The position numbers and the translations under genes are program-made. Shown here in pieces: positions 1,602-33,916 of a stretch of DNA of 49,639 nucleotides. Below the pieces are notes generated by a model. That model ran no database searches. It was not told where the DNA came from and saw nothing but the letters and a program-made list of their open reading frames with translations. Every line of letters begins with the position of its first letter. The first letter of the stretch is position 1. Source of the DNA: Paludibacter sp. (GTDB taxonomy: Bacteria; Bacteroidota; Bacteroidia; Bacteroidales; Paludibacteraceae); contig JAUSNQ010000107.1 of the NCBI GenBank assembly GCA_030655595.1, positions 1-49,639 of the forward strand, in the 5' to 3' direction.

Positions 1602-1622
1602 TTCAAATATTGTTTATTAAGA

Positions 1623-3122: not shown

Positions 3123-3139
3123 TATATGAAAGTATCTGA

Positions 3140-5362: not shown

Positions 5363-5380
5363 GTTTGTAAAATTGTTGTT

Positions 5381-7519: not shown

Positions 7520-7604
7520 ATCTTGATGATTTCTTTCTAATAATTTATACGCCAGACAATCAGACTCTTTCTTGCTGGAATCGTTTACTCCGGATGTTCT
7601 TAAT

Positions 7605-9899: not shown

Positions 9900-9944
9900 T
9901 ATACTTCTTTATAATTTATACAATCTTTTTTATACCTAAATAAA

Positions 9945-11735: not shown

Positions 11736-11741
11736 GGTAAT

Positions 11742-14700
11742 TTAAAATGTAACGTTAAGTCCTATAGAATATACCCTTGCCTTTGGATAAGAACCATAAT
11801 CCAATCCTGGCAATAAATTAGACAAAGTTCCTCTTGCTACGCTTACATCCGGATCATATCCGAGGTAATTCGTGAGAATGAACGCGTTTTTCACTGTTGC
11901 ATATACTTTGAAAGCCGACAAGAATGAAACCTTCCTGAGCGTTTTCGAATTAATATCATAAGATAATGTTATATCTGAAAGTCTTATAAATGAGCCGTCC
12001 TCAAGATAACGATCTGTCAGATAAGGCTCAGGATTTCCTCCTGCTCGTCTTAACAAAGTATTTTCATTGCCCTCAACAAGCATGACCAGCTCTCCTGTTG
12101 TTTCATAAATTGCTTTATCGTACAAATTTGGGCGGAATCGCTCTTTGATTGTTGCATACTGGTTGTTGACTGTACGCATTTCTTCCAACACTTCACGGGT
12201 AGCATTAAATAAGGTCGCACCATAAGAAAACTGCAGGGCAAAACTCAAACTGAATTCTTTGTATTTTAAATTATTAATCAATCCACCAGTAAAGACAGGG
12301 GCTCCACTTCCCAAAATAACCCGGTCATTTTCATCAATAAAACCATCTCCGTTTTGATCTACAAATTTGGTATCGCCTGGTATAATTGGATTGGTGAATT
12401 GCGATTTCATGGGAGAGTTTGTGATTTCCGATTGCGTTTTCCACACTCCTAAAGTTTGATATCCATACCATAAACCGATAGACTCGCCTTCACGCAACAA
12501 CCCAAAATCTCTTAATGTTGCATGAATGCCCGGATTCAGAATTTCTTCGCCACGTTCCCCAATTTCCAAGACTTTTGAACGATTGAAAGCCATATTATAA
12601 GACACATTCCAGCTTATCTTCTTATTCCTGAAAAAGTCAGCACCCAAAACCAGCTCAATACCGCTGTTGCTGATATTGCCAATATTAAATAATCGGGTGT
12701 TTAATCCACTATATTGAGGAACATCAACTGAATAAAGTAAATCCTGTGTGAATCGGTAATAATAATCTACCGAAATCGTATATCTGTTCTTAATGACTCC
12801 GAAATCAATTCCGTAATTTTGCTGCCAGGTTGTTTCCCATTTCAAATTAGGATTATCAATTCGGGAAACCATCACCCCGTAATTTAAATTATAACCGTCC
12901 AATGGATAAGAAGAAACATCCAAAGCCGATAATGACTGATATTGACGAATGGCTGTGTTACCACTCGCACCAACACTTGCTCTGAATTTGGCGTTGCTAA
13001 TCCAATCTTTTTCTTTCATAAAAGCTTCTTCGGAGGCTCTCCACGCAAATGAACCAGAAGGGAAATACCCCCATTTATTGCCGGCACCGAATCTGGAAGA
13101 TCCATCAGCTCGCATCGATGCAGAACCATAGTATCTACCAGCATAATTGTAACTTACTCTGCCCAAAAAAGAAGCCATCCTGTCGGTAATTATTCCGGAA
13201 CTTGGAATTTTAGGTGAAATGCCCTGGCCGATGTTGTTGATAGTTAAAGACTCAATTTCAAAATTGGTATTTTCGACATCTAAGTCACGACGGTTATTTT
13301 CCTCAAGCGTAGCACCGACCACAGCATCAATGTTATGATTACTATCAAAAGTTCGTTTATAAACAAGGGTATTTTCATTTAGAAAGGAATTAAGAAAAGT
13401 TGTGTTGATGATGGATCTACCTCTGTCGGTTCTACCCTGCCCCGTTTCTTTTGGATAAAAAATAAAACTCTGACGATATCCCAAGTTTGTATTCACACTT
13501 GTTTTAAATGAAAAATACTTATTAATATCCCAATCGTAAATAATATTTCCTGAAAGATTATACCGATGATAATCTTTAATTATTCTTTGAGCTTGCAAAT
13601 ACGGATTGTTGTTTGTGAAAATATCTTCACCATCAAATGCAACCCATTCATTGTCGGAAAATTGCTTTGTTGGCTGTTGAGCAAGCATATTCATAGTCAC
13701 GCCGGATGTTTCATTACTTGCCAATCCGTTTTGGTATGAATATGATCCTGAAAAATTAGCAGTCAGTTTGGTTGATTTAGTCAGGTTATAACGATTGTTT
13801 GCCCTGAAATTAAATCTCTCAAAACCACTATTAACAATGATTCCTTCTTGTTTTAAATAACTGGCCATCACATTGTAGGAATGGGCATCACTACCACCGG
13901 AAAAACTCAAACGATAATCCTGAATCAACGCCTCTTGCATCATAATATCCTGCCAGTTGGTATTGATTGAATCCGGAGAATTGTACGCACCCCAGTTATA
14001 ATTCGGACTGTTAAGATTCCATGTATAAAAATTCCCTTCAGAGTCTACATAATGTTGCCTGTCTGCTGCGGGATTATAAGTGGTCGACGTTTTATTAAAA
14101 TAAGTAGTATTGGCCCTGTCGAATTGAAAGTGAAGATAATCCGCCGAATTCAACATGTCAATTCTCGAAGAGGCCATCTGAATACCTGTTGAAGAAGAGA
14201 AATTAATCCTCGATTTGCCCTTTTGACCTTTTTTAGTTGTAATCATGATGATACCATTGGCACCTTTTGAACCATAGATAGCAGTTGAAGAAGCATCTTT
14301 CAAGACTTCAATGCTTTCAATTTCGGATGAGTTGATGATTGGATTATCTGTGGGAACTCCATCTACAACATACAAAGGAGTATTGCTGGCATTGATTGAC
14401 CCAACACCACGAATGACTATATTTTCATCAGCCCCGGGAGCTCCATCAGTAGATGTGATATTCATCCCGGCAACTCTTCCCTTCAACGCATCTTCAAGTG
14501 ATGTCACTACCCTGCTTTCCAGTTCTTCCGATCTGATGGTCGTGATAGCTCCTGTCAGGTCACTCCTCTTACTGGTACCATAGCCTATGGCGACAATTTC
14601 ATCAATCAGATTGATCATCTCTTCCATTTGTACGTCAATCACAGTTCTTTTTCCAACTTTTTCTTCACGGCTTATCATACCGACATAAGAAAAGGCCAGT

Positions 14701-14933
14701 ACGCTATTTTCATCCCTTACCCTGATTGTGTAAACCCCATTCAAATCGGTTAACACGCCACGATTTGTGCCTTTTTCCAGGATATTAACAAACGGTATCG
14801 GCTCGTTATCCTGATCTACTACTTTTCCCGTAATAGCTAGTCGCCGGCCTTCCCGTTGATCCTGAGCTTCAACAGTTAAGACATTCAATCCAACTAAAAA
14901 AATCAAAAATGTTACAATCAATTGTGTTTTCAT
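11742..14933 (-). CDS. susC: SusC/RagA-family TonB-dependent outer-membrane glycan transporter
   Basis: This 1063-residue protein is a SusC-type transporter. A signal peptide covers about residues 1-23, followed by a carboxypeptidase-regulatory-like domain (about 33-110, ITGKVVDQDNEPIPFVNI), a plug domain (about 115-225, with VAIGYGTSKRSDLTGAI, IRGVGSINASNTPLYVVDGV and STAIYGSKGANGII), and a 22-strand beta-barrel ending in an aromatic residue (LNVTF). It imports oligosaccharides using TonB energy together with the downstream SusD. It is the first gene of unit A, and the promoter and operator repeats lie directly upstream (14974-15041). Confidence 0.97.
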   Translation of the reverse strand: MKTQLIVTFLIFLVGLNVLTVEAQDQREGRRLAITGKVVDQDNEPIPFVNILEKGTNRGVLTDLNGVYTIRVRDENSVLAFSYVGMISREEKVGKRTVIDVQMEEMINLIDEIVAIGYGTSKRSDLTGAITTIRSEELESRVVTSLEDALKGRVAGMNITSTDGAPGADENIVIRGVGSINASNTPLYVVDGVPTDNPIINSSEIESIEVLKDASSTAIYGSKGANGIIMITTKKGQKGKSRINFSSSTGIQMASSRIDMLNSADYLHFQFDRANTTYFNKTSTTYNPAADRQHYVDSEGNFYTWNLNSPNYNWGAYNSPDSINTNWQDIMMQEALIQDYRLSFSGGSDAHSYNVMASYLKQEGIIVNSGFERFNFRANNRYNLTKSTKLTANFSGSYSYQNGLASNETSGVTMNMLAQQPTKQFSDNEWVAFDGEDIFTNNNPYLQAQRIIKDYHRYNLSGNIIYDWDINKYFSFKTSVNTNLGYRQSFIFYPKETGQGRTDRGRSIINTTFLNSFLNENTLVYKRTFDSNHNIDAVVGATLEENNRRDLDVENTNFEIESLTINNIGQGISPKIPSSGIITDRMASFLGRVSYNYAGRYYGSASMRADGSSRFGAGNKWGYFPSGSFAWRASEEAFMKEKDWISNAKFRASVGASGNTAIRQYQSLSALDVSSYPLDGYNLNYGVMVSRIDNPNLKWETTWQQNYGIDFGVIKNRYTISVDYYYRFTQDLLYSVDVPQYSGLNTRLFNIGNISNSGIELVLGADFFRNKKISWNVSYNMAFNRSKVLEIGERGEEILNPGIHATLRDFGLLREGESIGLWYGYQTLGVWKTQSEITNSPMKSQFTNPIIPGDTKFVDQNGDGFIDENDRVILGSGAPVFTGGLINNLKYKEFSLSFALQFSYGATLFNATREVLEEMRTVNNQYATIKERFRPNLYDKAIYETTGELVMLVEGNENTLLRRAGGNPEPYLTDRYLEDGSFIRLSDITLSYDINSKTLRKVSFLSAFKVYATVKNAFILTNYLGYDPDVSVARGTLSNLLPGLDYGSYPKARVYSIGLNVTF

Positions 14934-14973: not shown

Positions 14974-15041
14974 CAAATCTAAGTAATGAACCATTAATAA
15001 TTACATTAACCAATGTATTAATCTACAAGAATGTCATTAAT
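14974..15041 (-). promoter_or_regulatory. Promoter and triple-heptamer operator of the susC unit (site A)
   Basis: On the minus strand, TAGATTTG (14981-14974) matches the Bacteroidota -7 box TAnnTTTG. Upstream of it are three direct heptamers on the same strand: ATTAATG (14998-14992), GTTAATG (15010-15004) and ATTAATA (15022-15016). Their period is exactly 12 bp, and the proximal one is 10 bp from the -7 box. A fourth ATTAATG sits at 15041-15035. There is no clear -33 TTTG element, which fits an activator-dependent promoter. The same layout recurs at sites B and C. Binding by the nearby SARP-like regulator is inferred. Confidence 0.78.
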
Positions 15042-15064
15042 ATTCTGGATATTTTATCCCAGAA
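15042..15064 (-). other. Weak stem-loop at the end of unit B
   Basis: TTCTGGATA pairs with TATCCCAGAA with one bulged base. It lies 13 bp past the stop codon of the third phosphoesterase. On the minus strand it is not followed by a T-run, so termination here is uncertain and unit B could read into unit A. Confidence 0.35.
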
Positions 15065-15077
15065 CACGATAAAACCA

Positions 15078-16811
15078 TTAATTCTGTGATTCTTGTTTCA
15101 AACGATTCGATTTTACTCGTGCATCAAGTTCCTGTCCAAAACCGGTTGAAAAAATATTGTTGTAATCAACCGGATAATGTAGTCTGAAACAACCAGGAGA
15201 TTCGCTTTTAGAAAGTATATGAATATTGTCAAAATTTGCTTCCGAAACCGAACCCTTTTCCTTATTGACCCAAGTGCCCAATCCGACATACATTTTGCTT
15301 ACCTGCAATTCTGCAAAAGCACCTGCCTGTGAGATTGCCGTATCGTATATCATTCCCAGATTAACTTCTACAGACTGAAAACCAGTCATTTTTTCATGAG
15401 GAATCCTTACAAATAAAGCCTGTTGCTTCTGCCCCATATCATACAAATAATTCCATCCTGCTGAACGTCCCTGCAGTTCAAATCCAAAGCAACGTGGCAG
15501 ATAACTTGCTCTTTCTTCATTTTCTCCCCATAAGAAGAAAAACAACAAAGGATTATTTTTTTTATCAAAAGCTGTCACCCTGGCAAAACCTCCCCCATTG
15601 TTAGCTGATATGATTTGATAATCAAAGGTGAATGAAATATCTTCACCAGGAGGAACATCAACCACTCTAAACACTTCTGTGTGCTCATCTTCGGCCCAAC
15701 TTTCGGGAGGCGTGGAGCTGGTACGTACTTTCAAAATTGAATTACTGCCCGATTTTATTACTTCTGAAACAAAAGCCGGGTCATGATCACGCTTATATCT
15801 GTATTTGACATACCAATGATTCAACCCTTCTTCAAAACCTGTGTTTTTTGACCTGTCTGAAGTCGGGAGTTCAGCGATTGTTTTTGTCCAGCGTGGTTCT
15901 GTTTCATCTGTAAGTATTGGAAAAGATGATGGATACTGAAATACTTCTTTTGAACCTGCCAATCTTCCTTGCAGTTTTATCGCTTCGTTTTTTACCGAAA
16001 CTGTCATGTAGTATCCACCACGTTCGCTTCCTTTGACAAATGTAGGGAATTCTTCTCCAAACGGGCGGGTATGGATGATGGTTGGGACGGTAATGAAGTT
16101 GATTCCACGATAATTCCTGCTCATTTTCAGAGATGCCTGAATACCGTTGTGCACATGTCCGTTGAAGTAGTATTTAACATTGCCGTGCTTTGTCAATAAG
16201 TCGAGCAGGTGCTTTCTTGTAGTCAAATCAAAACCGTAAAACTCAAGTTGACTCAGACCCAATGGAATCAGGTGCAAATGTTCAAATACGATGGTGGGCT
16301 TATTCCTCGCTTCGAAGAGGTCCTGTTCCAACCACCGCAACTCGTCGGCTTTCAATTTAAAATCGCAACTCAATACCACGAAATGCCACTTACCCCAATC
16401 AAATGAGTAGTAGGCTTTTTCATAGTTGTTGTATTTTTTATGTAAATCAATAAAACCCTGATACGGATATTTGGTATCATGATTTCCATGCACTAAAAAA
16501 AATTTCGATTGCAGCGATGAAATGCTTGTCTCGAAATTCTGAACCGACTTTGGCTCAAAAACATTGACCAAATCACCCAGAAAGATTGTGAAATCTACCC
16601 TTGGGTTCAATTTATTAATTTCATCACACGCTTGTCTGAGGGTTTGCATGGCATCGCTGGCAACCTGATTCTTAGAATCTTCGGCACTTAACTGAGGGTC
16701 AGCAATAATTGCGAAGCTGAAATCATTTTTCTGCTGTGCAAAAACTGCTGCATTTAAAAGCAAGAAGAAGAAGAAGAAGAAGAAGATGATATAGATATGA
16801 CTTTTAATCAT
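15078..16811 (-). CDS. Exported calcineurin-like metallophosphoesterase (third, divergent type)
   Basis: This 577-residue protein differs from the two Tat-exported phosphoesterases. It has a Sec-type signal peptide whose core is seven consecutive Phe residues (10-16), encoded by a triplet repeat. The metallophosphoesterase motifs are present but altered at the first site: ADPQLS (Asp38, with Gln40 in place of the usual His), LGD (79-80), GNHD (109-112), FEHLH and NGHVHNG. A DxQ first motif is known in some branches of the superfamily, so activity is not excluded. The C-terminal 280 or so residues look like a beta-sandwich (jelly-roll) carbohydrate-binding region. It is the last gene of unit B, after a sulfatase. 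Confidence 0.87.
   Translation of the reverse strand: MIKSHIYIIFFFFFFFLLLNAAVFAQQKNDFSFAIIADPQLSAEDSKNQVASDAMQTLRQACDEINKLNPRVDFTIFLGDLVNVFEPKSVQNFETSISSLQSKFFLVHGNHDTKYPYQGFIDLHKKYNNYEKAYYSFDWGKWHFVVLSCDFKLKADELRWLEQDLFEARNKPTIVFEHLHLIPLGLSQLEFYGFDLTTRKHLLDLLTKHGNVKYYFNGHVHNGIQASLKMSRNYRGINFITVPTIIHTRPFGEEFPTFVKGSERGGYYMTVSVKNEAIKLQGRLAGSKEVFQYPSSFPILTDETEPRWTKTIAELPTSDRSKNTGFEEGLNHWYVKYRYKRDHDPAFVSEVIKSGSNSILKVRTSSTPPESWAEDEHTEVFRVVDVPPGEDISFTFDYQIISANNGGGFARVTAFDKKNNPLLFFFLWGENEERASYLPRCFGFELQGRSAGWNYLYDMGQKQQALFVRIPHEKMTGFQSVEVNLGMIYDTAISQAGAFAELQVSKMYVGLGTWVNKEKGSVSEANFDNIHILSKSESPGCFRLHYPVDYNNIFSTGFGQELDARVKSNRLKQESQN
16762..16785. repeat. (AAG)8 trinucleotide microsatellite inside a signal peptide
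   Basis: Eight uninterrupted AAG triplets on the plus strand read as TTC/CTT on the coding strand and form the poly-Phe core of the signal peptide of the third phosphoesterase. Slippage by whole triplets would lengthen or shorten the hydrophobic core without a frameshift. Confidence 0.9.
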
Positions 16812-16843
16812 GGCTTAATGTTGTTGAGAAAATTTCAAACGAC

Positions 16844-18424
16844 TTATTCTTTGATATTTATTTCTTTGCGTTTTGCTTCCAGTCTGATCTGCATATCCTT
16901 TAAAACAGCAGCATAAGCGGGATTTGCATATACGTTATTCACTTCAAATTTATCATTTTTCAGATCGTACAATTCCCAATAATCAACATCTTTACCGGCA
17001 TCTTTTCCTAAACCCTTGCCGTAAAAACGAATTAATTTATATCTGTCAGTACGGATGCCGTAATGTTTTCTTACTGAATGAACGGCCGGATAGTCATAAT
17101 AATGGTAATAAATTTCTTTGCGCCAATCCTTGGGAACCTTCCCCTGAAACAGATTGCTCCAGGACACACCCGCCATATCTTCCGGGACAGGGATATTCGC
17201 CAAATCAAGATAAGTCGGAGCAAAATCGATGTTTTGAACCAATGCATGACAATGTGAAGCTGGCTTTACCATCTTAGGGTAACGAACGATCAGAGGCATC
17301 CTGAATGACTCTTCGTACATGAATCGTTTATCATACCAGCCATGTTCACCCAGATAAAATCCCTGATCAGAGGTATATACAATGATTGTATTGTCTAGCA
17401 TCTTTTCTTTCTCAAGCCATTGAATCACACGTCCAACCTGCTCGTCGACCGATTTGATGCAGCGCAGATAATCTTTCACATAACGTTGATATTTCCATTT
17501 GAGGAGTTCTTCTCCTTCGAGTTTCGCTGCAACAAATGCTTCATTTTCTTCATCATATGCGGCATTCCATATAGCTAACTGCTCAGGGGTCATCCTGGCC
17601 ATTGCAATTTCCCAATCTCTTTTTATCCAGGGAGTTTTTTCTTTATCTTTGAGTTGATCAACTTTTAAATCATAAGCAAGCGACATATCATACATGATAC
17701 TCATTTCCTGTGTCCGCGAAGCATCCCCCCGGGTCGCATAATCATCAAACAAGGTCGCAGGATACGGAAATTCAACATCTTTAAAAGCATTTAAATATTT
17801 GAGTTCAGGCATCCAGTTGCGGTGAGGCGCCTTGTGATGCAACAACAAACAGAAAGGTTTTTGTTTGTCTAACGATTTCATCCATGCAAGCGCATGGTCG
17901 GTTGTCAGTGTGGTTGCATAACCTTCCTCCCGCATGTACTTTCCATCAGTTTCTTTGGTCCTGAACTCAGGATTGTAATAATCACCCTGATCGTCGAGTA
18001 TCTTGTAAAAATCGAACCCTTTGGGGTCATTTTTCAAGTGCCATTTACCTACTACAGCTGTTTGATAACCTGCCTGCTGAAGCAATTCCGGAAAAACGTT
18101 TATTTCGTCTTTCAAACCCTTTCCCAATCGTTGCTGACCGTGCACATGGCTGTATTTTCCGGTAAGCAAAGTAGCACGACTTGGAGCTGATATAGAATTT
18201 TCAACATAAGCACGGTGAAACAACATCCCTTCTTTTGCCAAGCGGTCCAGATTGGGAGTCGGTGCCAATTTCGATAACGGATGACCGTATGCGCTGATTG
18301 CCTGAAAAGCGTGATCATCGGTCATGATGTGAATGATATTGGGACGCATGTCCTTTCCTTGTGCTACCATGCCTGCGACTATTGTCAGTCCGCCCAAAAG
18401 CAAAGAAGCTGGTTTTTTGTTCAT
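16844..18424 (-). CDS. Sulfatase, serine-type, exported
   Basis: This 526-residue sulfatase has its activation motif SAPSR with the formylglycine precursor at Ser79, followed by ATLLTGKYSHVHGQ. The metal-binding residues include DD at 36-37. The block SDQGFYLGEHGWYDKR with MYEESFRMPLIVRYP resembles GlcNAc-6-O-sulfatase-type and mucin-desulfating enzymes of the S1 family, so an amino-sugar 6-sulfate is a possible substrate; I would not assign it firmly. A signal peptide covers about residues 1-23. It follows the TonB-dependent transporter in unit B and needs anSME activation encoded elsewhere. Confidence 0.93.
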   Translation of the reverse strand: MNKKPASLLLGGLTIVAGMVAQGKDMRPNIIHIMTDDHAFQAISAYGHPLSKLAPTPNLDRLAKEGMLFHRAYVENSISAPSRATLLTGKYSHVHGQQRLGKGLKDEINVFPELLQQAGYQTAVVGKWHLKNDPKGFDFYKILDDQGDYYNPEFRTKETDGKYMREEGYATTLTTDHALAWMKSLDKQKPFCLLLHHKAPHRNWMPELKYLNAFKDVEFPYPATLFDDYATRGDASRTQEMSIMYDMSLAYDLKVDQLKDKEKTPWIKRDWEIAMARMTPEQLAIWNAAYDEENEAFVAAKLEGEELLKWKYQRYVKDYLRCIKSVDEQVGRVIQWLEKEKMLDNTIIVYTSDQGFYLGEHGWYDKRFMYEESFRMPLIVRYPKMVKPASHCHALVQNIDFAPTYLDLANIPVPEDMAGVSWSNLFQGKVPKDWRKEIYYHYYDYPAVHSVRKHYGIRTDRYKLIRFYGKGLGKDAGKDVDYWELYDLKNDKFEVNNVYANPAYAAVLKDMQIRLEAKRKEINIKE

Positions 18425-18457
18425 GATAATGTGTTTTTGAATATAAGATTAAACTAT

Positions 18458-21286
18458 TTATTTTTTTCCTCCCATTGATTGTTTATTGTCACTTTTATTT
18501 TGTTTTCCCTTTTTGCCCAGGGTATTAAACCGATATACTAAATAAAGCATTGCATAAGCCGAAAGCGTGTTATATTCCTGATCTTCAACAAAATTATTTG
18601 TTACATTTCTTACGATATTCAATTGCTGACCCAGCACATCATTCACACGCAATCTGATTGTGGCAGCTTTACCAAGGAACATTTTGCTAACTTCAAAACT
18701 CCAAAGCGTTTCACTTTTGTTATATCCCTCTGAAAAACCAGCATATCCGCGGTAGCGCAAATCAGTAGAAAACGCCCATGCATCGGGCAATGACAACTGA
18801 GTGGAAAAATTAAAACCGTAGGCCGATGTTAGTTGCGATTCCCTACCTTCAATTGAATGTGCGGTTTTACTTCTGGTATAATTTCCTTTGAGCTGAGCAA
18901 AAATTATATCTTTTCGAAAAGATACTCCGATGTTTTGAATCAAAGATGTGGTTGTAGAAATATTCTTTTCGCTTCCATACCGCGGCATATAAGAATAGCC
19001 AATATCATTTCTCATGTTAAACTGGCTGTAGTTATTTATTTGAAACATCGAACCGACAGGCTGGTTAAACATCATCACTCCCTGAATATTCCACGAGCCA
19101 GACTCATTCAGATATTCAGTCGTGCGTATGCCGGTACCAATGTGCTCCTCCTTTTCTTCGAAAATTGTTTTGCTAATGATATCATTATACAGATACTGAC
19201 CGGAAAAAGTAGTTATGAAAGAACGTTGATTTTTTTTGTCGAAATCACTGTATCTCATCCTCAGGGTATTGACAAATGTAGGGATGAGGTTTGGGTTTCC
19301 CCTCCTGATGTTGTTGGGGTTGGTAATATCGTCAGTCGGGTCGAGTTGAAAAATTGTCGGCGATTCAGTTCGTGCTTTGTAATCAATTTTGAGCATGCTA
19401 ATTTTCGAGAAATTATAGGTATAACTGAGATTCGGGGCGAAATTCCAAACAGTCAGACCGGGATAGACATACACGGTCGAATCACTTCCATCGTAACTCC
19501 CACCATGGATAAATCTTCTGCTGGAGGTATAAGATGGATTTATATCAATCCCCAACAAATAATTATATTTATCCCTTACAGCACGGAAACTCAATGCCAG
19601 CTGCTGGGTGATGGTTATATTATCCAGACTTTTGCTGTATTTTGGATCAATGACAGTATATGCATCCTGATCATCCTTCACATAACTGTTTTTTATCGAC
19701 TCCCTGTCGTTGTATCTGAACCAGTAAGTAGTCTGAAAAAAGTTATTTTTACCTATCGGCTCAACATAAGCTGAATAAAAGCGCGTATTCATGGTTGAAT
19801 TCGAAGTTTTAACCTGCTGGTCAATACGTTCGCGTTCTTTGCCTGTTTTGTAAATAAAAAACCTTGAGAAATTCTCGCCTTGTCCGTCTGTGTCGGCATA
19901 CCGGGAATCAATATTGAAAGACAGTTTCCGTCCCTTTTTGTCGAAATCCTTTACTACGGTCAGCAACCCACCTACGCTGATTGCTTCTTTCGTGTCGGCA
20001 TTCATTTTATAACTGCGGTTGATTTTTGTGCTGTCGGCAGCCGACAAAACACCAAATCCCTTCGACTCAGCAACAGACTTTGAAAAGGTGCCACTTGGAG
20101 CAAACTGGATGGTCCATCCTCCGGCAGGTTTGTATTCCAGTTGGTAATTAAATTGAATTTCGTGACTTCTATTGATGGTGTGGGTGGTATCTTTCAAAAA
20201 AGTAACACTGTCGATCAGCATGTTTTGTCGCGCACTCCATCGACTGATATCTTTATTCGAGAATCCATAGGTAATATCTCCCGTCATTTTTAAATTGGGT
20301 GATTTTTCGGCAGCATAATTAACCCCGGTTGAGAATGTTGTATTGATGCCGGGATTAATTGCTTTTCTGGTGGTGAGCAATGAGGTTTGTTCTGCCCTTG
20401 TTGAAAATTTCTGGTTGTTGATGTTATTTCCGTTTACAACAAATCCGAATTGTGACTCATCTTTAAAACGCATGGCTACTGTATTTAAATCATAGCGGAC
20501 TTCATCAAAAAGGGTTGCATCCAACTCGCTCCCGATTCCTCCGTTCGCATTGAGCATGACACCCTGTTTCATCCCTTTTTTGATTGTAATATTGATTATA
20601 ATCTCATCTTCACCATCATCAATGCCCGTCAACTGCGCTAATTCTGATTTTTCATTGATAATTTGCAGTTTATCCATGATTTCGACTGGAATATTTTTAG
20701 AAGAAATCGTCGCATCTCCCTTGAAGAAATTTTTTCCGTTGACCATGATTTTTTTTATCTCTTTTCCCTGTACTGTAATTTTCCCGGTTTCCGACACCTC
20801 TACCCCCGGCAACCGTTTCAATAAATCTTCTACAACTGCGCTTTCCGGTAGTTTAAAGGCTTCGGTATTGAATTCAACGGTGTCCCCTTTCACGACCATT
20901 TCGGTTAACTGAGCTGTAACAACGGCCTCTCTCAGCGCAATTACATTCTCGTCGATATTTATTTTTCCCAAATCCAGCACTGATGATTTATCATTTACAA
21001 GCAGCAATTGATACGTGTTTTTATATCCTATAGAGCTAACCACCAAAATATATTTTCCCGGATTAACCCGAAGCAACTCGAAGTTTCCATTATTGTCAGT
21101 GCTTACTCCTTTAAACAAAGAACTGTCCTTTGCGTGTAGCAACCTTACCGTAGCAAATGGCAACGGTTTGTTTGCCGGCTGTTCTACAACTAGCCCTTTA
21201 ATATTTAAAGTATGAATAGAAACGGCTAATGATGGTTGTATGTTAAGACAAAACAACATGATTATAAGAAAGAAATTAAATTTCAT
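18458..21286 (-). CDS. TonB-dependent outer-membrane receptor (non-SusC type)
   Basis: This 942-residue protein has a signal peptide (1-21), a carboxypeptidase-regulatory-like domain (about 28-105, LNIKGLVVEQPANKPLPFATVRL), a plug-like region with LLKRLPGVEVSETGKITVQG and VNGKNFFKGD, and a long beta-barrel of the outer-membrane-protein 'OMP_b-brl' kind. It lacks the SusC signature blocks and has no SusD partner beside it, so it is a separate transporter, perhaps for a released monomer, a small oligosaccharide or a metal. The last residues are basic and Lys/Gly rich (QNKSDNKQSMGGKK) rather than an aromatic barrel terminus. It sits between two sulfatase genes in unit B. Confidence 0.9.
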   Translation of the reverse strand: MKFNFFLIIMLFCLNIQPSLAVSIHTLNIKGLVVEQPANKPLPFATVRLLHAKDSSLFKGVSTDNNGNFELLRVNPGKYILVVSSIGYKNTYQLLLVNDKSSVLDLGKINIDENVIALREAVVTAQLTEMVVKGDTVEFNTEAFKLPESAVVEDLLKRLPGVEVSETGKITVQGKEIKKIMVNGKNFFKGDATISSKNIPVEIMDKLQIINEKSELAQLTGIDDGEDEIIINITIKKGMKQGVMLNANGGIGSELDATLFDEVRYDLNTVAMRFKDESQFGFVVNGNNINNQKFSTRAEQTSLLTTRKAINPGINTTFSTGVNYAAEKSPNLKMTGDITYGFSNKDISRWSARQNMLIDSVTFLKDTTHTINRSHEIQFNYQLEYKPAGGWTIQFAPSGTFSKSVAESKGFGVLSAADSTKINRSYKMNADTKEAISVGGLLTVVKDFDKKGRKLSFNIDSRYADTDGQGENFSRFFIYKTGKERERIDQQVKTSNSTMNTRFYSAYVEPIGKNNFFQTTYWFRYNDRESIKNSYVKDDQDAYTVIDPKYSKSLDNITITQQLALSFRAVRDKYNYLLGIDINPSYTSSRRFIHGGSYDGSDSTVYVYPGLTVWNFAPNLSYTYNFSKISMLKIDYKARTESPTIFQLDPTDDITNPNNIRRGNPNLIPTFVNTLRMRYSDFDKKNQRSFITTFSGQYLYNDIISKTIFEEKEEHIGTGIRTTEYLNESGSWNIQGVMMFNQPVGSMFQINNYSQFNMRNDIGYSYMPRYGSEKNISTTTSLIQNIGVSFRKDIIFAQLKGNYTRSKTAHSIEGRESQLTSAYGFNFSTQLSLPDAWAFSTDLRYRGYAGFSEGYNKSETLWSFEVSKMFLGKAATIRLRVNDVLGQQLNIVRNVTNNFVEDQEYNTLSAYAMLYLVYRFNTLGKKGKQNKSDNKQSMGGKK

Positions 21287-21340
21287 GGAACGATGCTATG
21301 CAAATGATTACGATAATTACAAAAATTAATAAATTCCAGT

Positions 21341-22780
21341 TCAGAATAAATCTTTCAGGTCTGCCAAACTATTTAAAAGCGGATCATCTTGCTGTTTTGC
21401 TTCTATTAGCAGATTCCGAAAAAGAAGATTGGCTGTTTTTGTGTACTTCTTATTGCCGAAGAGATTGTTCATTTCCAAAGGGTCGCTATGAAGATCAAAA
21501 AGATAAATCTGCTTCGCTGCTGGAATTATATAAAGCTTGTACCGATCATTTCTTAGCATGCGCTGACTTTGCATGAATGCTCCATAAACAAACTGTCTGC
21601 CTTTTTCATTTTTTCTCACTAAAACATCAGTAAGCGATTTGAAATCGATTGAAATATCCTCCTTTACCCCTGCTACTTCATACATCACAGGCACAATATC
21701 CTGCATATACACAAGTTGAGTTCGTGTTTGACCTTTCTCTACCGCGTATCCCGAGATGATTAAAGGAACTTTGATGCTGTGTTCATAAAGGTTTTGCTTG
21801 CCCAGAAAGCCATGTTGTCCAACCGCTAGTCCATTGTCAGAAGTAAGTATAATTAAAGTGTTTTTATCCATTCCCTCATTCTTGAGTACGGATATAATTC
21901 TTCCGATTTGTTCATCGAGGTGTGAGATGATGGCATAATACTCTTGCCGGTGTTTTCTGACCGCATAAGGCGTACGTGGAAATGGAGCCAAACGCTCATC
22001 TCTGAGGTTTCTTCCTGCATCCATAAGCTTATTCAAAGGATGTTCTGGTAGAAAATTTTCGGGCAATTGAATGGATGCGAGTGGATATTGATCAACAAAA
22101 GAACGCGGTGCCTGACGCGGATCGTGTGGGGCATTGAAAGCGCAATACATGAAATGAGGGTTGTTCGACCGGGCATTGTTCCTAATATATTCGATGATGA
22201 CATCAGCTTGTTCTTCAGACCAGTGTTTTACTCCTGTCCAAAACCCCTTTTGAGCTTTGTCCCACGGTAACCACAACGAGTCATTTTCATTTTGTGGACG
22301 GTTGTAACTTGCCGGTGTATCAGCAGGCATACCACCCGTCCTCATCAACTCCACCTGATCAAAAACCTGATTGGGGGTGATGTGTGCAACATGCCATTTG
22401 CCGGTCATGAATGTGCTATATCCGGCATTTTTCATGATTTGAGGCAACAGCATTTCAGACTCAAACTCTTTTTTGTAACGTAATTTTTCGGCCTGATTTG
22501 CACGCCAGATGTATCGACCGGTGAGCAATTGCGACCGACTGGCAATGCTGACAGCTCCGTTCCAACCTCCCATGTTGTATGCATTTTCGAACAAAACACC
22601 CTGATGTGCCAAAGCATCTAAATTTGGGGTTTTAATTACTTTGTTACCATATGCTCCAACCGCATCATACGAAAGATCATCCAGATAGATAAACAAGATA
22701 TTTGGCTTGGATGGCTTTTCAGCATACAGTCCGAGCGAAGCAGCAAAAGGAAACAGCAAATGAAAAAATTTGAGTTGCAT
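21341..22780 (-). CDS. Sulfatase, serine-type with SxASR motif, exported
   Basis: This 479-residue sulfatase is the first gene of unit B. The activation motif is SIASR (Ser78), where the usual Pro is Ala; this variant is seen in active sulfatases. Supporting motifs are DD at 34-35, SQLLTGRYIWR after the active site, and LTSDNGLAVGQHGFLGKQNLYEH for the second metal site. A signal peptide covers about residues 1-20. The gene starts 34 bp downstream of a perfect -7 box and the ATTAATG operator of site B. The substrate is unassigned. Confidence 0.93.
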   Translation of the reverse strand: MQLKFFHLLFPFAASLGLYAEKPSKPNILFIYLDDLSYDAVGAYGNKVIKTPNLDALAHQGVLFENAYNMGGWNGAVSIASRSQLLTGRYIWRANQAEKLRYKKEFESEMLLPQIMKNAGYSTFMTGKWHVAHITPNQVFDQVELMRTGGMPADTPASYNRPQNENDSLWLPWDKAQKGFWTGVKHWSEEQADVIIEYIRNNARSNNPHFMYCAFNAPHDPRQAPRSFVDQYPLASIQLPENFLPEHPLNKLMDAGRNLRDERLAPFPRTPYAVRKHRQEYYAIISHLDEQIGRIISVLKNEGMDKNTLIILTSDNGLAVGQHGFLGKQNLYEHSIKVPLIISGYAVEKGQTRTQLVYMQDIVPVMYEVAGVKEDISIDFKSLTDVLVRKNEKGRQFVYGAFMQSQRMLRNDRYKLYIIPAAKQIYLFDLHSDPLEMNNLFGNKKYTKTANLLFRNLLIEAKQQDDPLLNSLADLKDLF

Positions 22781-22813
22781 GGTGTTTTATAGACTAAAGT
22801 ATGATTGCTTAGA

Positions 22814-22881
22814 CAAAGATAGCCGGTGATACTTAATGAAAACATTAATGGTCACATTAATGTAAAATAAAATACATTAAG
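22814..22881 (-). promoter_or_regulatory. Promoter and triple-heptamer operator of the sulfatase unit (site B)
   Basis: On the minus strand, TATCTTTG (22821-22814) is a perfect TAnnTTTG box. Direct heptamers lie upstream: ATTAAGT (22837-22831), ATTAATG (22849-22843) and ATTAATG (22861-22855), at 12-bp period, with the proximal one 9 bp from the box. A distal CTTAATG lies at 22881-22875. The design matches sites A and C almost base for base, including the distal copy 20 bp beyond the third repeat. Confidence 0.8.
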
Positions 22882-22909
22882 ATGGACCAAAACTGCTTTT
22901 GATAAATAC

Positions 22910-22947
22910 AAAAAGCGATCTCCATTATAAACAGGAGAACGCTTTTT
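22910..22947. terminator. Bidirectional rho-independent terminator after the regulator gene
   Basis: AAAAAGCGATCTCC (22910-22923) pairs with GGAGAACGCTTTTT (22934-22947) with one mismatch and a 10-nt loop, flanked by A and T runs. It lies about 80 bp past the regulator stop codon and upstream of the site B promoter, so it insulates the regulator from unit B. Confidence 0.85.
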
Positions 22948-23025
22948 CATACAGGAATAATTTTTTGAACCTTTTACGACCCGACTTGATTACAACACCC
23001 AGAACATAACTTGTGAAAAAGAAAA

Positions 23026-25563
23026 TCATTTCACGGCATAACGTTCGATATAACTTTTCATATCAAGTGTTATTGGATTACCATAAGATTGTTTATAGTC
23101 ATTTTTATAAGATTCGAAGTTCTGTTTCGCAGCAATTGTTTTTCCTAATTTCAGCAGTGCAGATAATTTGGCAGCAAAAAATTCATCGTTCAAGGGCTCC
23201 AGAGCAAGTAGCACATTGGTCAGTTTCACGACAGTGGCAAACTCCAATTTTTCCATCAAAGGATTAATTTCTTTTGGTAAAATCTCCAGCAACAAAGCTT
23301 CAAAAGTCGATTTGAATTTATCAATCCAAGGTGTTTGTATATGAGGAAAGAACATGCCGTTGGACAATGTCGAAATCAGGGTTGAAATTTCAAATGGTTT
23401 TTTCTGTGCCAGCATCATGAATATTTGAACATAATCACAATGAGCGGGCTCATCAACTTGTATAACCCATTTGCCGTTTTCGGCTTTATCGAGTGTAATT
23501 CCATCAATATCTTTCAAAATTGCCCTGAGCTGATTCGCAGTAACACCTCTCAGATTTTGAGCAGATGCCGCGTCTTTATCAGGCCATAATGCAGTACAAA
23601 GATCCAATGAAGTTAAACCACCCCGTTCTGAATAACTGTTCAATAAAACCAAAGCGAAAAAATGCTTTAATCTTACGCTAAAGCGATAAGTAATGTCTTT
23701 CCCTTTATTATCGAAAACAGCAAAGCCTCCAAAAGTATACACAGAATTAGGACTAGGGATGTAAATCAGCGAATTAATAGCATGATGTTCCTCTATTATA
23801 TCAGTTGAATCATCATAAACTTCGGTATCATCGTGTTTGTATTTGCGTTTAATTAACCAAAAAACTAAAAAGCCGGCAATCAGCAATGTCAGTAAAACCA
23901 ATAGAATATTCAGAAATGTCTTTACCTGGTAGGATTGACCGTACAATTCAAGTTCATTCTGAGGAGGCGAAGCAAGCGAATAAATCCTCAAACTTGCCTG
24001 CAATTCTTTCGACCACTCTTTGACCACACACAAAAGCTGCGAACTCTTTTCGTCATGAAACAAAAAGGCATTCGATTGAATTTTTTCCGACATCATCGCA
24101 ATTGTATCTGCAACTCTTACGATTGTTTTCTCATTTAAAGAGATACGATAAAGCTGAAGGGTAGCATTCACTTGTTGATGAGTAAAACCAAGCACATAAA
24201 TTTCATTGCTTTTTTCGATATAAACCAATTGATTTAACGGAACAAAATTTTCTTCAATTTGATTTTTGAAATCTGCAATTTTCTTACTCTCACCCGTTGA
24301 GAGATTCACTAAGAAAAGATCATAGAAATGAAAACCGCCCATTTCCTGTTTGCCACTCGGGTTACCAAACCCACCAAAAACAAACACCTCTTCAGGACTG
24401 TAAGCTTCACCCATTGTTGTGAAAAATCTGGGCTTAATGCTGTCTCCCTTGAGTGGTATATCTACCCACAAGGACTCAGAAATATCTAATTTCGTTAACT
24501 TGTTGTAGTAACTGAAACTCCCGTACCCTCCAAAAACATACAACGCAGTGTCTGTCGGATTAAAGTAAGAACCGTGGTGATGCCTCTTGCCGATTGAATT
24601 AATTATTTCGTAATACTTCTCCGATGAATCTGCTTTGCTGACTGACAACATGTTATCACCAATTTCGCGATTACCGTAATGATACACGAAGATATTGTCC
24701 TGAATCGGATTGTAGACAGCCTCTCTGTAGTATTTACTCAGGTCAATCAACTTTTCGAAAGGCTTAGCCGAGAAAATCTCATCGCGTGAAGAAAATGTAA
24801 ATACTGAATCATCTGATAGTACGTGTACTTCCTGACGTATGCTATCGAAAGCAATCCCGCTGTTGTAATGACAGGTTGCAAAACCTATTTGAGACCAATG
24901 CAGGTGGTCAGATATCAGCCAGCAAGGATTTTCAACTACGCCTACAATTCTTTTTCTAACATCGTGAATTTCCGTTCCCTCTTTTTGAGTAAGTGGAATA
25001 AAGATCTCCTTGTTGTTACTTTTTGAAGTAATGTGCAAATTTCGGATTGCCATCCGCACTACTTCAATATATTGAGTTGAACGGCCAAATACAAATTCTC
25101 CTTTAGAACAATCATTTTCCAGTTCTGTTTCTAAAACCAGCTGCTTATCCTTACATGTAATTGAAACTTCATTCTTTTCAGCATCAAAACTAACAATTAT
25201 TGGAATCCAGTGACTCCTGCCCAATTGATTTTTTGGGACACTGATGATAGCAGCTTTATTCTCTGCCGGAATGGTCAATTCAAAATGAGAGTTGGCACTG
25301 TTGCGGTAATGTACGTGTACAAAATTCACGACCTTTTGAGAGGGTAATTTGAAACTGAAAATATAACCAAACTTGTCAGCATTCCAGATTGAGACATCAA
25401 ATTCAATTTGAAAAGAACCTGAAACCCCCATTTTCGAGAGATTTAGCTGCGCTGATGTTCTTTGATTAATCAGCTCATCAGATGATTTAAAAGCCAGACC
25501 ACCAATATTGGCATATGCAGTTACAACAACAAATAGCAAGGTAAGCAGCAATTTAGCTTTCAT
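23026..25563 (-). CDS. Membrane-spanning one-component regulator: LamG/Kelch-like sensor, one TM, SARP/BTAD-like DNA-binding domain
   Basis: The protein (845 residues from this start) begins with a signal peptide, MKAKLLLTLLFVVVTAYA. An in-frame ATG at 25626 would add 21 residues before it and is less likely. Residues about 25-195 look like a LamG/concanavalin-like beta-sandwich. Residues about 250-530 contain Kelch-like repeats (ALYVFGGYGSF, EVFVFGGFGN). One transmembrane helix lies at about 549-571 (LLVLLTLLIAGFLVFWLI), followed by the basic KRKYKH, giving an outside sensor and cytoplasmic C-terminus. Residues about 609-704 resemble an OmpR-like winged helix of the SARP type (TYRFSVRLKHFFALVLL, LCTALWPDKD, NLRGVTANQLRAIL). 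The rest is helical, like a BTAD/TPR domain. No kinase, receiver or AraC domain is present. It lies between the three operator-bearing promoters and is the best candidate for their activator. Confidence 0.82.
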   Translation of the reverse strand: MKAKLLLTLLFVVVTAYANIGGLAFKSSDELINQRTSAQLNLSKMGVSGSFQIEFDVSIWNADKFGYIFSFKLPSQKVVNFVHVHYRNSANSHFELTIPAENKAAIISVPKNQLGRSHWIPIIVSFDAEKNEVSITCKDKQLVLETELENDCSKGEFVFGRSTQYIEVVRMAIRNLHITSKSNNKEIFIPLTQKEGTEIHDVRKRIVGVVENPCWLISDHLHWSQIGFATCHYNSGIAFDSIRQEVHVLSDDSVFTFSSRDEIFSAKPFEKLIDLSKYYREAVYNPIQDNIFVYHYGNREIGDNMLSVSKADSSEKYYEIINSIGKRHHHGSYFNPTDTALYVFGGYGSFSYYNKLTKLDISESLWVDIPLKGDSIKPRFFTTMGEAYSPEEVFVFGGFGNPSGKQEMGGFHFYDLFLVNLSTGESKKIADFKNQIEENFVPLNQLVYIEKSNEIYVLGFTHQQVNATLQLYRISLNEKTIVRVADTIAMMSEKIQSNAFLFHDEKSSQLLCVVKEWSKELQASLRIYSLASPPQNELELYGQSYQVKTFLNILLVLLTLLIAGFLVFWLIKRKYKHDDTEVYDDSTDIIEEHHAINSLIYIPSPNSVYTFGGFAVFDNKGKDITYRFSVRLKHFFALVLLNSYSERGGLTSLDLCTALWPDKDAASAQNLRGVTANQLRAILKDIDGITLDKAENGKWVIQVDEPAHCDYVQIFMMLAQKKPFEISTLISTLSNGMFFPHIQTPWIDKFKSTFEALLLEILPKEINPLMEKLEFATVVKLTNVLLALEPLNDEFFAAKLSALLKLGKTIAAKQNFESYKNDYKQSYGNPITLDMKSYIERYAVK

Positions 25564-25669
25564 TGTTGTTATTTTAGTATGTAAGAATTTCTTGATATAA
25601 CGGGACATATATGAATGCATTTCCAAATAAAAATTGGTATCAATAGTTGATGTGCTACTAATTTTTGCA

Positions 25670-25677
25670 CAAATTTA
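25670..25677 (-). promoter_or_regulatory. Probable -7 box of the regulator gene
   Basis: On the minus strand this reads TAAATTTG, a match to TAnnTTTG. It lies about 107 bp upstream of the preferred regulator start and 44 bp upstream of the longer one. No clear -33 element and no ATTAATG triplet are present, so the regulator does not appear to share its targets' operator. Confidence 0.5.
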
Positions 25678-25863
25678 TAAAAAACTTTCAATATAAAATA
25701 ATCATGCACCTAATTGGCGTGTAATTGTTAATACCGGGAATCTTTCAATACCGATTTCAATTACTAAACAATAAAATAAGCTAACTGGTTCATTTCAAAA
25801 ATCAACCGCGTGAAAACAAATGGAAACTACTCAAAACGCTTTAATCAAAAAAGAAATAATGGT

Positions 25864-25932
25864 ATTAATAATTTTTTCATTGCGTTAATGATTTTATTAA
25901 TGGTTATATTAAGGTGGTGATTTGTACTTTTG
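25864..25932 (+). promoter_or_regulatory. Promoter and triple-heptamer operator of the T9SS unit (site C)
   Basis: TACTTTTG (25925-25932) is a perfect -7 box. Upstream on the same strand are GTTAATG (25884-25890), ATTAATG (25896-25902) and ATTAAGG (25908-25914), at exact 12-bp period, with the proximal one 10 bp from the box. A distal ATTAATA is at 25864-25870, 20 bp before the first of the three. The orientation relative to transcription is the same as at sites A and B although this unit is on the opposite strand. Confidence 0.8.
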
Positions 25933-25992: not shown

Positions 25993-27609
25993 ATGAAAAG
26001 AAAAATTACTTCAATTATTATTGCAACATTATTATTTGCTGCAACGAGTTCAGCCCAAGAAGTGCTTCTCGGTCAATATCATTTTAACGATGCAACCACT
26101 TATTCTGAAGTTGGAGTGGATGATGCGATTGTATTGAATCCAACTGAAGTGATTTCTACAACTGGCCAATGGGTTGTTACTATCAATGACGCCGGAAATG
26201 GTGTTTACAAGGCGTACAATACTGCAACACGAAATTTAAATCAATTCCCGTTAGGAGTAAGTCTTACCCCAAAAACGGGTTTTATCATCAAAATAAATAA
26301 AGTTGAGGTTTACCACAAAACATCCGCGACAACAACAGCTGCAACACAGAAATTTTCTTATTATGTGGGCACCGCTTCAACTGTCGCTAGTTCAACCGAT
26401 TTAACTACAGAAACTAACCTTCCAACTTCTGCAAACTTCACCCTTTTCTCGCACACATTTTCAACACCTGTTGAAGTTAGTGGTAGTAATAAATTTTGGA
26501 TATACCACCGAACTAAAAACACAACTTTTCCTCCAACAGTCACCACCGAAGTTGATTACATCAAATTTTACGGCACCTATTTAGATCCAAATGCACCCGT
26601 CATCAATGCGGCATTAGGAACTCACAACATCAAAGCGGCAAAAGTTGGTGGTAGTATTTCAAAAGTTATTGACATCACGCATTCAAATTTAACCCAGGGA
26701 ATTTCGACTAGTTCATCCAACTCAACTTTCACCGCTGCTTTTGACGATGGTGGCGAAAGTGGCACCTACAATTTACTTCGGGTAACGTATACGCCAACTA
26801 CCGAAGGATACGAAACAGCAACCATCACATTAACTTCTGGCTCTGCTACGAAAGACATACCAGTAAAAGCCTGGGGTTTGCCCGAAAATGCCATTGCTGC
26901 GTGGAACTTCGACGAACAAACCATTACGCCAGATTACCATGCTTATGTTACAGCGCCATCCATCGAAATGTTGGGAGGTTCAGTTGGAAGCTTTAATCTG
27001 CAGGATACTTACATGTATGAAATCAACAACCTGTATACGGTCGTTGAAGAAGTAGAAGTACCCGAAATTGCCGGCATGAAATTCAAAGATCTCGGATATA
27101 ACGGAAGGGTGAATGTCAGATTCGATATCAATGCAAGAAACGCTTCGCCCAATACCCTGAAATTAGGCAGCGAGTACTGGAAAAACCCGAGAACAAGCGT
27201 AGGTACTGAAGCAAATGTGAATATAGAAGTTTCTGTATCAGATGGCGAACTTTCACTCGTAAGCGCATTTGATCAAGAAGTTGAACCGAAAATATTTAAA
27301 TCCATCTCGGGTACTGCATTTAATAATTCCAACGGTTGGAGATTTGACAACATCATCATCATGTCGTTGATGGGTACTTCAATGCAGGAAAAAGCTATTA
27401 ACAACATGCGTATCTATACACACAACAATAACCTGTACATCGGCAACAATACCCAAGAAGGTAAACTGGATATCATTTCCATGAATGGCATTGTCGTAAA
27501 ATCCTGTAAAATCTCAGGCAACCAGAGCATACAAACTGATTTGAAAGGAATTTACTTAGTACGCATTGCTTTAGAAAAAGAAATAATCATGCAAAAAGTT
27601 GTTTTTTAA
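25993..27609 (+). CDS. T9SS-exported beta-rich protein of unknown function (paralogue 1)
   Basis: This 538-residue protein has a signal peptide (about 1-21) and a C-terminal T9SS-type sorting domain (last 70 residues, with KLDIISMNGIVVKS and LKGIYLVRIALEKE). In between I see an N-terminal beta-sandwich (LLGQYHFNDATTYSEVGVDD to TEVDYIKFYGTYLDPNAP, about 22-200), a middle module ending in VKAWGLPENAIAAWNF, and a third module (about 300-465) ending in GWRFDNIIIMS. No catalytic motif is recognisable. It is the first gene of unit C, directly behind operator site C, and has a full-length paralogue next to it. A surface glycan-binding role is a reasonable guess, because SusE/F-type lipoproteins are missing from the locus. 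Confidence 0.8.
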   Translation: MKRKITSIIIATLLFAATSSAQEVLLGQYHFNDATTYSEVGVDDAIVLNPTEVISTTGQWVVTINDAGNGVYKAYNTATRNLNQFPLGVSLTPKTGFIIKINKVEVYHKTSATTTAATQKFSYYVGTASTVASSTDLTTETNLPTSANFTLFSHTFSTPVEVSGSNKFWIYHRTKNTTFPPTVTTEVDYIKFYGTYLDPNAPVINAALGTHNIKAAKVGGSISKVIDITHSNLTQGISTSSSNSTFTAAFDDGGESGTYNLLRVTYTPTTEGYETATITLTSGSATKDIPVKAWGLPENAIAAWNFDEQTITPDYHAYVTAPSIEMLGGSVGSFNLQDTYMYEINNLYTVVEEVEVPEIAGMKFKDLGYNGRVNVRFDINARNASPNTLKLGSEYWKNPRTSVGTEANVNIEVSVSDGELSLVSAFDQEVEPKIFKSISGTAFNNSNGWRFDNIIIMSLMGTSMQEKAINNMRIYTHNNNLYIGNNTQEGKLDIISMNGIVVKSCKISGNQSIQTDLKGIYLVRIALEKEIIMQKVVF

Positions 27610-27640
27610 TCGTTTAATTTCAATAATTCATTATTTTTGT

Positions 27641-27682
27641 CCCATCCTCCGGTATCCTGACACAGATATCCGGATGATGGGG
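27641..27682. repeat. Imperfect inverted repeat between the two paralogues
   Basis: CCCATCCTCCGGTATC pairs with GATATCCGGATGATGGG across an 8-nt loop with one bulge. No T-run follows, so it may be an mRNA processing or stability hairpin that sets the ratio of the two tandem genes rather than a terminator. Confidence 0.6.
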
Positions 27683-27721
27683 TAAATAATTCTACAATTA
27701 ACTTCTAAAATAAATACCACC

Positions 27722-29377: not shown

Positions 29378-29414
29378 TCAAATAATCTAACTCAAAATTC
29401 CGGAATTTTTTCAT

Positions 29415-29459
29415 AAAAAAGCACAGGCACTAAAAATCAAGCCGTGTCTGGCTTTTTTA
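29415..29459. terminator. Rho-independent terminator after the paralogue pair
   Basis: AAAAAAGCACAGGCAC and GTGTCTGGCTTTTTT form a stem with small mismatches and a T-tract; the A-tract makes it work in both directions. It would lower read-through into the esterase genes, which have no obvious operator of their own. Confidence 0.78.
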
Positions 29460-29496
29460 TGCTCTTATTTGCACAATCATTTTAATAATTCATTTT

Positions 29497-32475: not shown

Positions 32476-32504
32476 TCAGAAAATAATTACCAATTCAATT
32501 TATC

Positions 32505-33896: not shown

Positions 33897-33916
33897 TACT
33901 TAAATATTAGAAAATC

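Follow-up and report, generated by a model that had tools for sequence, protein, structure and literature searches.

Glycan loci of Bacteroides are controlled by SusR and by hybrid two-component regulators, which are membrane-spanning glycan sensors encoded beside susC and susD. Their sensor and DNA-binding domains are other than those of the Kelch-SARP protein described here. Regulators of the CadC/ToxR type likewise have, within one protein, a winged helix joined through one transmembrane helix to a periplasmic sensor, but their winged helix is N-terminal and they are not known to have a BTAD domain, unlike the Kelch-SARP protein. SARPs have been described in actinomycetes, where they activate antibiotic genes (PMC10936776). 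The Streptomyces SARPs AfsR, ActII-ORF4, DnrI and PimR and the mycobacterial EmbR share with the present regulator, as predicted, the order of a winged helix followed by a BTAD. SARP sites are heptameric direct repeats that have spacers of 4-15 nt and overlap the -35 region, and PimR also binds 10-bp units (PMC10972967). Triplets of heptamers are already known for SARPs (PMC10972967, PMC3367932). Distances of 11 or 22 bp between repeats are common, with 8 bp between the final repeat and the -10 element, and for AfsR two neighbouring protomers occupy direct repeats that overlap -35 and engage sigma region 4 (PMC10936776).

The window, which is the whole stretch of 49,639 nucleotides of Paludibacter sp. 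DNA that was analysed, encodes a regulator (Table 1) with a hydrophobic N-terminus, a beta-sandwich, a Kelch propeller, a transmembrane helix, a winged helix and a BTAD-like helical domain. Its predicted structure has an OmpR-type winged helix and then an all-helical BTAD, which would place it in the SARP family. The model of the C-terminal part is closest to AfsR and EmbR, with TM-scores to AfsR that are moderate (0.53-0.58), and the BTAD match of the sequence is 13.7 bits, under the Pfam cut-off of 22.1. The closest homologs, P0003 and P0004, are 57% identical to the regulator. Unlike in the Streptomyces SARPs and EmbR, the SARP part forms the C-terminal end and is preceded by a Kelch sensor and a transmembrane helix, and the putative sites have a 12-bp period (11 in some relatives), a distal half-site, glycan-locus targets and a Bacteroidota promoter box. 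A search of open PMC papers found no published case of a Kelch-sensor SARP that is anchored in the membrane and belongs to glycan loci. The hairpin with a T-run behind the regulator gene (-18.4 kcal/mol, z -4.13, none of 200 shuffles as good) is probably the terminator of that gene; the simple hairpin scan does not list it.

Three promoters in the window carry triplets of heptamers, and these are likely activator operators of the transmembrane SARP-type regulator, a probable glycan sensor. The analysis shows how the sites are built, that they go with the gene in relatives, and which fold the protein is predicted to have; we infer that it binds and activates at them, as well as its topology, its ligand and what a distal element does. 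A sequence-only reading had proposed three ATTAATG heptamers at an exact 12-bp period, with 9-10 bp between the proximal heptamer and a perfect -7 box. Direct reading of all three sites bore out the period, the number of repeats and the distance to the box (10, 9 and 10 bp). The literal ATTAATG did not hold, as it is present in only four of the nine heptamers; the invariant core is TTAA. All three sites are intergenic relative to the long ORFs of the window, and each box ends 33-60 nt ahead of a predicted start codon (14933, SusC-like; 22780, sulfatase; 25993, a borderline T9SS-tail protein). The boxes match TAnnTTTG perfectly by sequence, and those of relatives differ (for example TATACTTG, TAATATTG and TATCTTTA). 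A TTG was sought 16-24 bp upstream of the boxes and was found at none of the three.

Table 1. Features of the window and positions of the zinc-ribbon ORFs of distant loci
Feature	Position	Strand	Remarks
Proposed operon A	6..14933	-	SusC-like, SusD-like, GH92, two metallophosphoesterases, GxGYxYP protein, sulfatase
Proposed operon B	15078..22780	-	two sulfatases, outer-membrane beta-barrel protein, metallophosphoesterase
Proposed operon C	25993..29377	+	two T9SS-tail proteins
Kelch-SARP regulator	23026..25563	-	845 aa from ATG 25563; ORF opens at TTG 25626
Hairpin with T-run	22892..22955	-	between regulator gene and operator B
Putative operator A	14992..15022	-	three heptamers, 12-bp period; upstream of SusC-like gene 11742-14933
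Site A heptamers	15022-15016, 15010-15004, 14998-14992	-	ATTAATA, GTTAATG, ATTAATG; direct reading
Promoter A box TAGATTTG	14974..14981	-	10 bp from proximal heptamer; 40 nt before start codon 14933
Site A distal TTAA	15037..15040	-	-43 from proximal TTAA
Putative operator B	22831..22861	-	three heptamers, 12-bp period; between regulator stop codon and sulfatase gene 21341-22780
Site B heptamers	22861-22855, 22849-22843, 22837-22831	-	ATTAATG, ATTAATG, ATTAAGT; direct reading
Promoter B box TATCTTTG	22814..22821	-	9 bp from proximal heptamer; 33 nt before start codon 22780
Site B distal TTAA	22877..22880	-	-44 from proximal TTAA
Putative operator C	25884..25914	+	three heptamers, 12-bp period; upstream of gene 25993-27609
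Site C heptamers	25884-25890, 25896-25902, 25908-25914	+	GTTAATG, ATTAATG, ATTAAGG; direct reading
Promoter C box TACTTTTG	25925..25932	+	10 bp from proximal heptamer; 60 nt before start codon 25993
Site C distal TTAA	25865..25868	+	-44 from proximal TTAA
Zinc-ribbon ORF, five distant loci	L059:11887; L061:11480; L067:11615; L095:4098; L060, 10418		L060 position is a minus-strand reading

The sites resemble those of SARPs. By sequence they fit the heptameric pattern, with 5-nt spacers and coverage of the -33 region, and they are likewise triplets, as at several SARP sites near or over -35 (PMC10972967 and PMC3367932). The last repeat stands 9-10 bp from the -7 box, compared with 8 bp from the -10 element in SARPs; the spacing is a weaker point of the earlier comparison with SARPs, the period being 12 and not 11 or 22 bp (PMC10936776). 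Period 12 prevails in the window and most relatives, and 11 bp is seen in locus L058 and in one step each of L059 and L067. The period of 11 that classical SARPs would predict was rejected for the window, where it is absent; it occurs in L058, mixed with 12 in L059 and L067, and partly in a second set of loci. The repeats had also been claimed to lie in the transcribed orientation. Since CATTAATG is its own reverse complement and the pattern matches on both strands at sites A-C, the window alone leaves the orientation open. The heptamer of relatives is mostly TTAACCC, which is asymmetric and reads toward the box, and this settles the orientation in the sense that had been claimed.

Triplets of this kind are rare by chance in the window. 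There are three TTAA triplets at period 12, compared with a mean of 0.01 and a maximum of 1 in 100 order-2 Markov sequences, and three triplets with a box, compared with none in the same sequences. A regular expression derived from sites A-C matches the window only at 12 among periods 8-20. When the heptamers were scored upstream of all 52 TAnnTTTG boxes in the window, sites A-C reached 21, 20 and 20 of 21; the next best box reached 13, in agreement with the claim that other promoters of the window have no such triplet.

Genome contigs were scanned with four regulator sequences, yielding 21 loci, mostly from Mucilaginibacter, with two from Chitinophagaceae and one from a MAG. A period-12 TTAA triplet, mostly of TTAACCC repeats, lies downstream of the regulator and on its strand in 20 of the 21, and a TAnnnTTG box follows 12 nt after the last TTAA in 18, which upholds the proposed tie between operator and Kelch-SARP gene. 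The triplet was sought downstream of the regulator in L013 and is absent; L016 and L018 have it without the TAnnnTTG box. Operator B holds the same position as the arrays of relatives, between the regulator stop codon and the next gene. That next gene encodes a protein of about 1050 aa in 14 loci, and likewise in L002, where the contig end cuts it. A 360-aa protein precedes the one of about 1050 aa in L016 and L018, and the array is about 900 bp downstream in L008, L009 and L012. Pfam searches in two loci identified a TonB plug and SusD in the next genes of L006, and LamG and a TonB plug in L016. In the 634 kb made up of the window and 56 loci, a period of 12 gave 32 matches compared with 0, 0 and 1 in controls. 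Of these 32, five repeat counted loci (L022-L025, L028), one (L026) falls within the coding sequence of a paralog, and the four-copy array of L036 accounts for two that overlap. Periods 8-11 and 13-16 gave 0-5 matches compared with 0-3 in controls. A TTAATG-like match in L103 of the background set was dropped, as it is inside an open reading frame.

The genome-wide scan covered the genomes of 20 of the 21 loci, that of L013 being left out. The full pattern has 22 matches in 18 of the 20 genomes, compared with 2 for the reversed control, and the two genomes without a match are those of L016 and L018. Eighteen matches are downstream of the regulator, two precede a GH76-type gene (assigned by Pfam in G002; the G411 site is the matching one), and the remaining two are G408:C260 and G400:C321. 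In nine other homolog-bearing genomes, in whose lineages the boxes differ, the strict pattern with a box has two matches, both in G389 and away from its regulator, compared with 4 for the reversed control. In a sample of 198 Bacteroidota from across the phylum, 12 matches, including one known site, fall in 11 genomes, compared with 9 matches for the reversed control, so elsewhere the pattern is near chance. Two Mucilaginibacter genomes have a second, unlinked putative operator with the same distal element (L094:9042 and L081:1501), in front of a gene for a 375-aa GH76-type lipoprotein.

The operators extend further upstream. A TTAA stands at exactly -44 from the proximal TTAA in 22 of 27 aligned sites; the exceptions are window site A at -43, L016 and L018, which have GGTTAGCG, and L061 and L066, where it is absent. 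At the Mucilaginibacter sites the distal element has the sequence GGTTAAt.AA, which inverts the heptamer. By local first-order shuffles, a TTAA at -45 to -43 in all three window sites has a probability of about 1e-4. The spans given in the sequence-only reading also take in the distal TTAA, which its text does not mention. At Mucilaginibacter-type sites, an additional TTAA recurs upstream of the distal element, at -58 in 13, at -59 in 6 and at -70 in 10 of the 27 aligned sites, and these may be more half-sites.

Arrays are also found beside distant homologs. By reading, the array directly follows the regulator in L059, L060, L061, L062, L066, L067 and L095, and is about 120 bp further on in L096. 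These arrays have three or four copies at 12 bp, with one 11-bp step each in L059 and L067, both read by eye, and L058 is at 11 bp. A regular expression that includes the box confirms five distant loci (L060, L062, L066, L095, L096). No array was found at the regions read in the homologs L063, L064, L065, L068, L069, L097 and L098. On a tree that we labelled by array presence, 4 changes are needed; shuffled labels need 8.2, and none of 500 shuffles comes as low, a result that near-copies favour. In five distant loci the array is followed by a small zinc-ribbon ORF (39-53 aa, CPxC...CKxC), placed like a first target of the regulator there. The regulator gene of G136 (L067:8947-11453) is in two frames with a stop and perhaps broken, and the array behind it persists with steps of 11, 12 and 12 bp.

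In the second set, which was drawn separately, a strict array within 700 bp downstream is present in 3 of 25 rows (L115, L116, L129; control 0) and absent from that interval in the other 22. Leaving out L134 and L137, whose genes are those of L128 and L133, and L126, where the downstream DNA is missing, gives 22 loci, among which the near-copies L118/L120 and L130/L135 were retained. An 11-12 bp array, a pattern loosened after inspection of this set, is present in the flanks of 13 of the 22 (control mean 0.60, maximum 2), and in 5 together with a box (control 0). Among other step ranges, 10-11 and 12-13 each yield 5, 9-10 yields one, and none comes from 8-9, 13-14 or 14-15. Gene and array are thus paired widely but not universally, with a period of 11 or 12.

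In the proposed mechanism, the cytoplasmic winged helix and BTAD of the membrane-anchored Kelch protein would bind the triplets. A glycan is probably sensed by the beta-sandwich and Kelch part, which would lie in the periplasm, and the signal would pass one transmembrane helix so that the cytoplasmic domains align on three direct TTAA-core heptamers at a 12-bp period. The proximal heptamer would sit within the promoter spacer, and the bound protomers may take the role of the absent -33 element, keeping RNA polymerase at the TAnnTTTG box. In its position, with 9-10 bp from the last repeat to the box and a -33 element lacking, the arrangement fits the mode of AfsR with three protomers, which the Kelch sensor would feed through the membrane. 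The distal half-site, inverted in relatives and 20 bp further upstream, probably takes an extra protomer. By our own arithmetic at 10.5 bp per turn, a 12-bp step would rotate the next protomer about 50 degrees past a full turn, compared with about 17 for 11 bp, so the contacts between protomers would have to differ from those of AfsR. The 12-bp period raises a question of packing for SARP protomers on sites that rotate about the helix from one to the next.

Three other explanations were weighed. That the arrays are chance TTAA repeats in AT-rich intergenic DNA is hardly credible, even with TTAA at 286 places in the window: the full pattern is found in 0 of 100 Markov controls and relatives conserve both period and distance, and we rejected it on the Markov controls, the relatives' loci and genomes and the 198-genome scan. 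A repressor acting through the same operator and protein, in which protomers bound in the spacer would block polymerase until a glycan signal frees them, is improbable. The proximal heptamer does lie downstream of the -33 region and upstream of the -7 region, a place at which bound protein could also obstruct polymerase, but the predicted fold is that of SARP activators, whose repeats hold an equal position relative to -10 (PMC10936776), and the boxes have no -33 element, like activator-dependent promoters.

Slightly less probable still is that another regulator, encoded elsewhere, binds the arrays and that the Kelch-SARP gene is linked to them by gene order only. Some homologs do have no array, and we infer the binding of array by regulator. 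Against this, the array stays with the regulator though the next gene varies (a SusC-like protein of about 1050 aa, a 360-aa LamG protein, a zinc-ribbon ORF or a sulfatase). Activator operators of the Kelch-SARP protein are thus the reading we prefer. Its extension to a class of transmembrane SARPs that is wide in Bacteroidota and their relatives is an evenly balanced proposal: these would be one-component glycan-sensing activators that control polysaccharide loci straight from the membrane, on three or four direct heptamers at 11-12 bp, with more than two protomers recruiting polymerase, and the branches of the window and Mucilaginibacter would add the inverted half-site.

The sites delimit a candidate regulon. 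Operon A was proposed from gaps of at most 85 bp and operon B from gaps of at most 54 bp, and operon C probably extends to 29377. Beyond it, from 29377 to 37072, are genes for two SASA esterases and a T9SS-tail protein. The 119-bp gap after 29377 holds a terminator-like hairpin with a T-run (29439-29454), ahead of the SASA gene at 29497, which makes a reach of operon C to 37072 uncertain; the scan that lists this hairpin finds 17 of its kind, compared with 15.2 in shuffles. The regulon that had been drawn from 6 to 37072 is therefore retained as a proposal for operons A, B and C up to 29377, and its remainder is doubtful. The locus has the composition of a polysaccharide utilization locus, with the SusC-like gene (11742-14933) adjoining SusD (9945-11735) and with GH92 and sulfatases. 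The window and L001 both have GH92, and the extra putative operators stand before GH76-type genes, a gene content that suggests alpha-mannose-containing glycans as the ligand. If the reading is true, a transmembrane Kelch-SARP protein that switches glycan-use loci adds a class of regulator beside those known. Regulator and operator can be recognised jointly from sequence, and targets such as the GH76 site in two genomes thereby become predictable.

A triplet with a box directed toward the regulator gene was sought as a sign of self-regulation and none was found, a TAAATTTG box alone lying upstream on its strand. Operator C occupies the gap upstream of the regulator gene and is nearly palindromic, a caveat for self-regulation. 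At L064 and L065, two regulator-like genes (853 and 646 aa) overlap head to tail with no gap or array between them; the oriented regulator positions are 8045-10606 and 8083-10644. In the phylum sample, other proteins in L040, L044 and L047 carry a related winged-helix/BTAD-like part at their end, which hints at further fusions of the SARP type.
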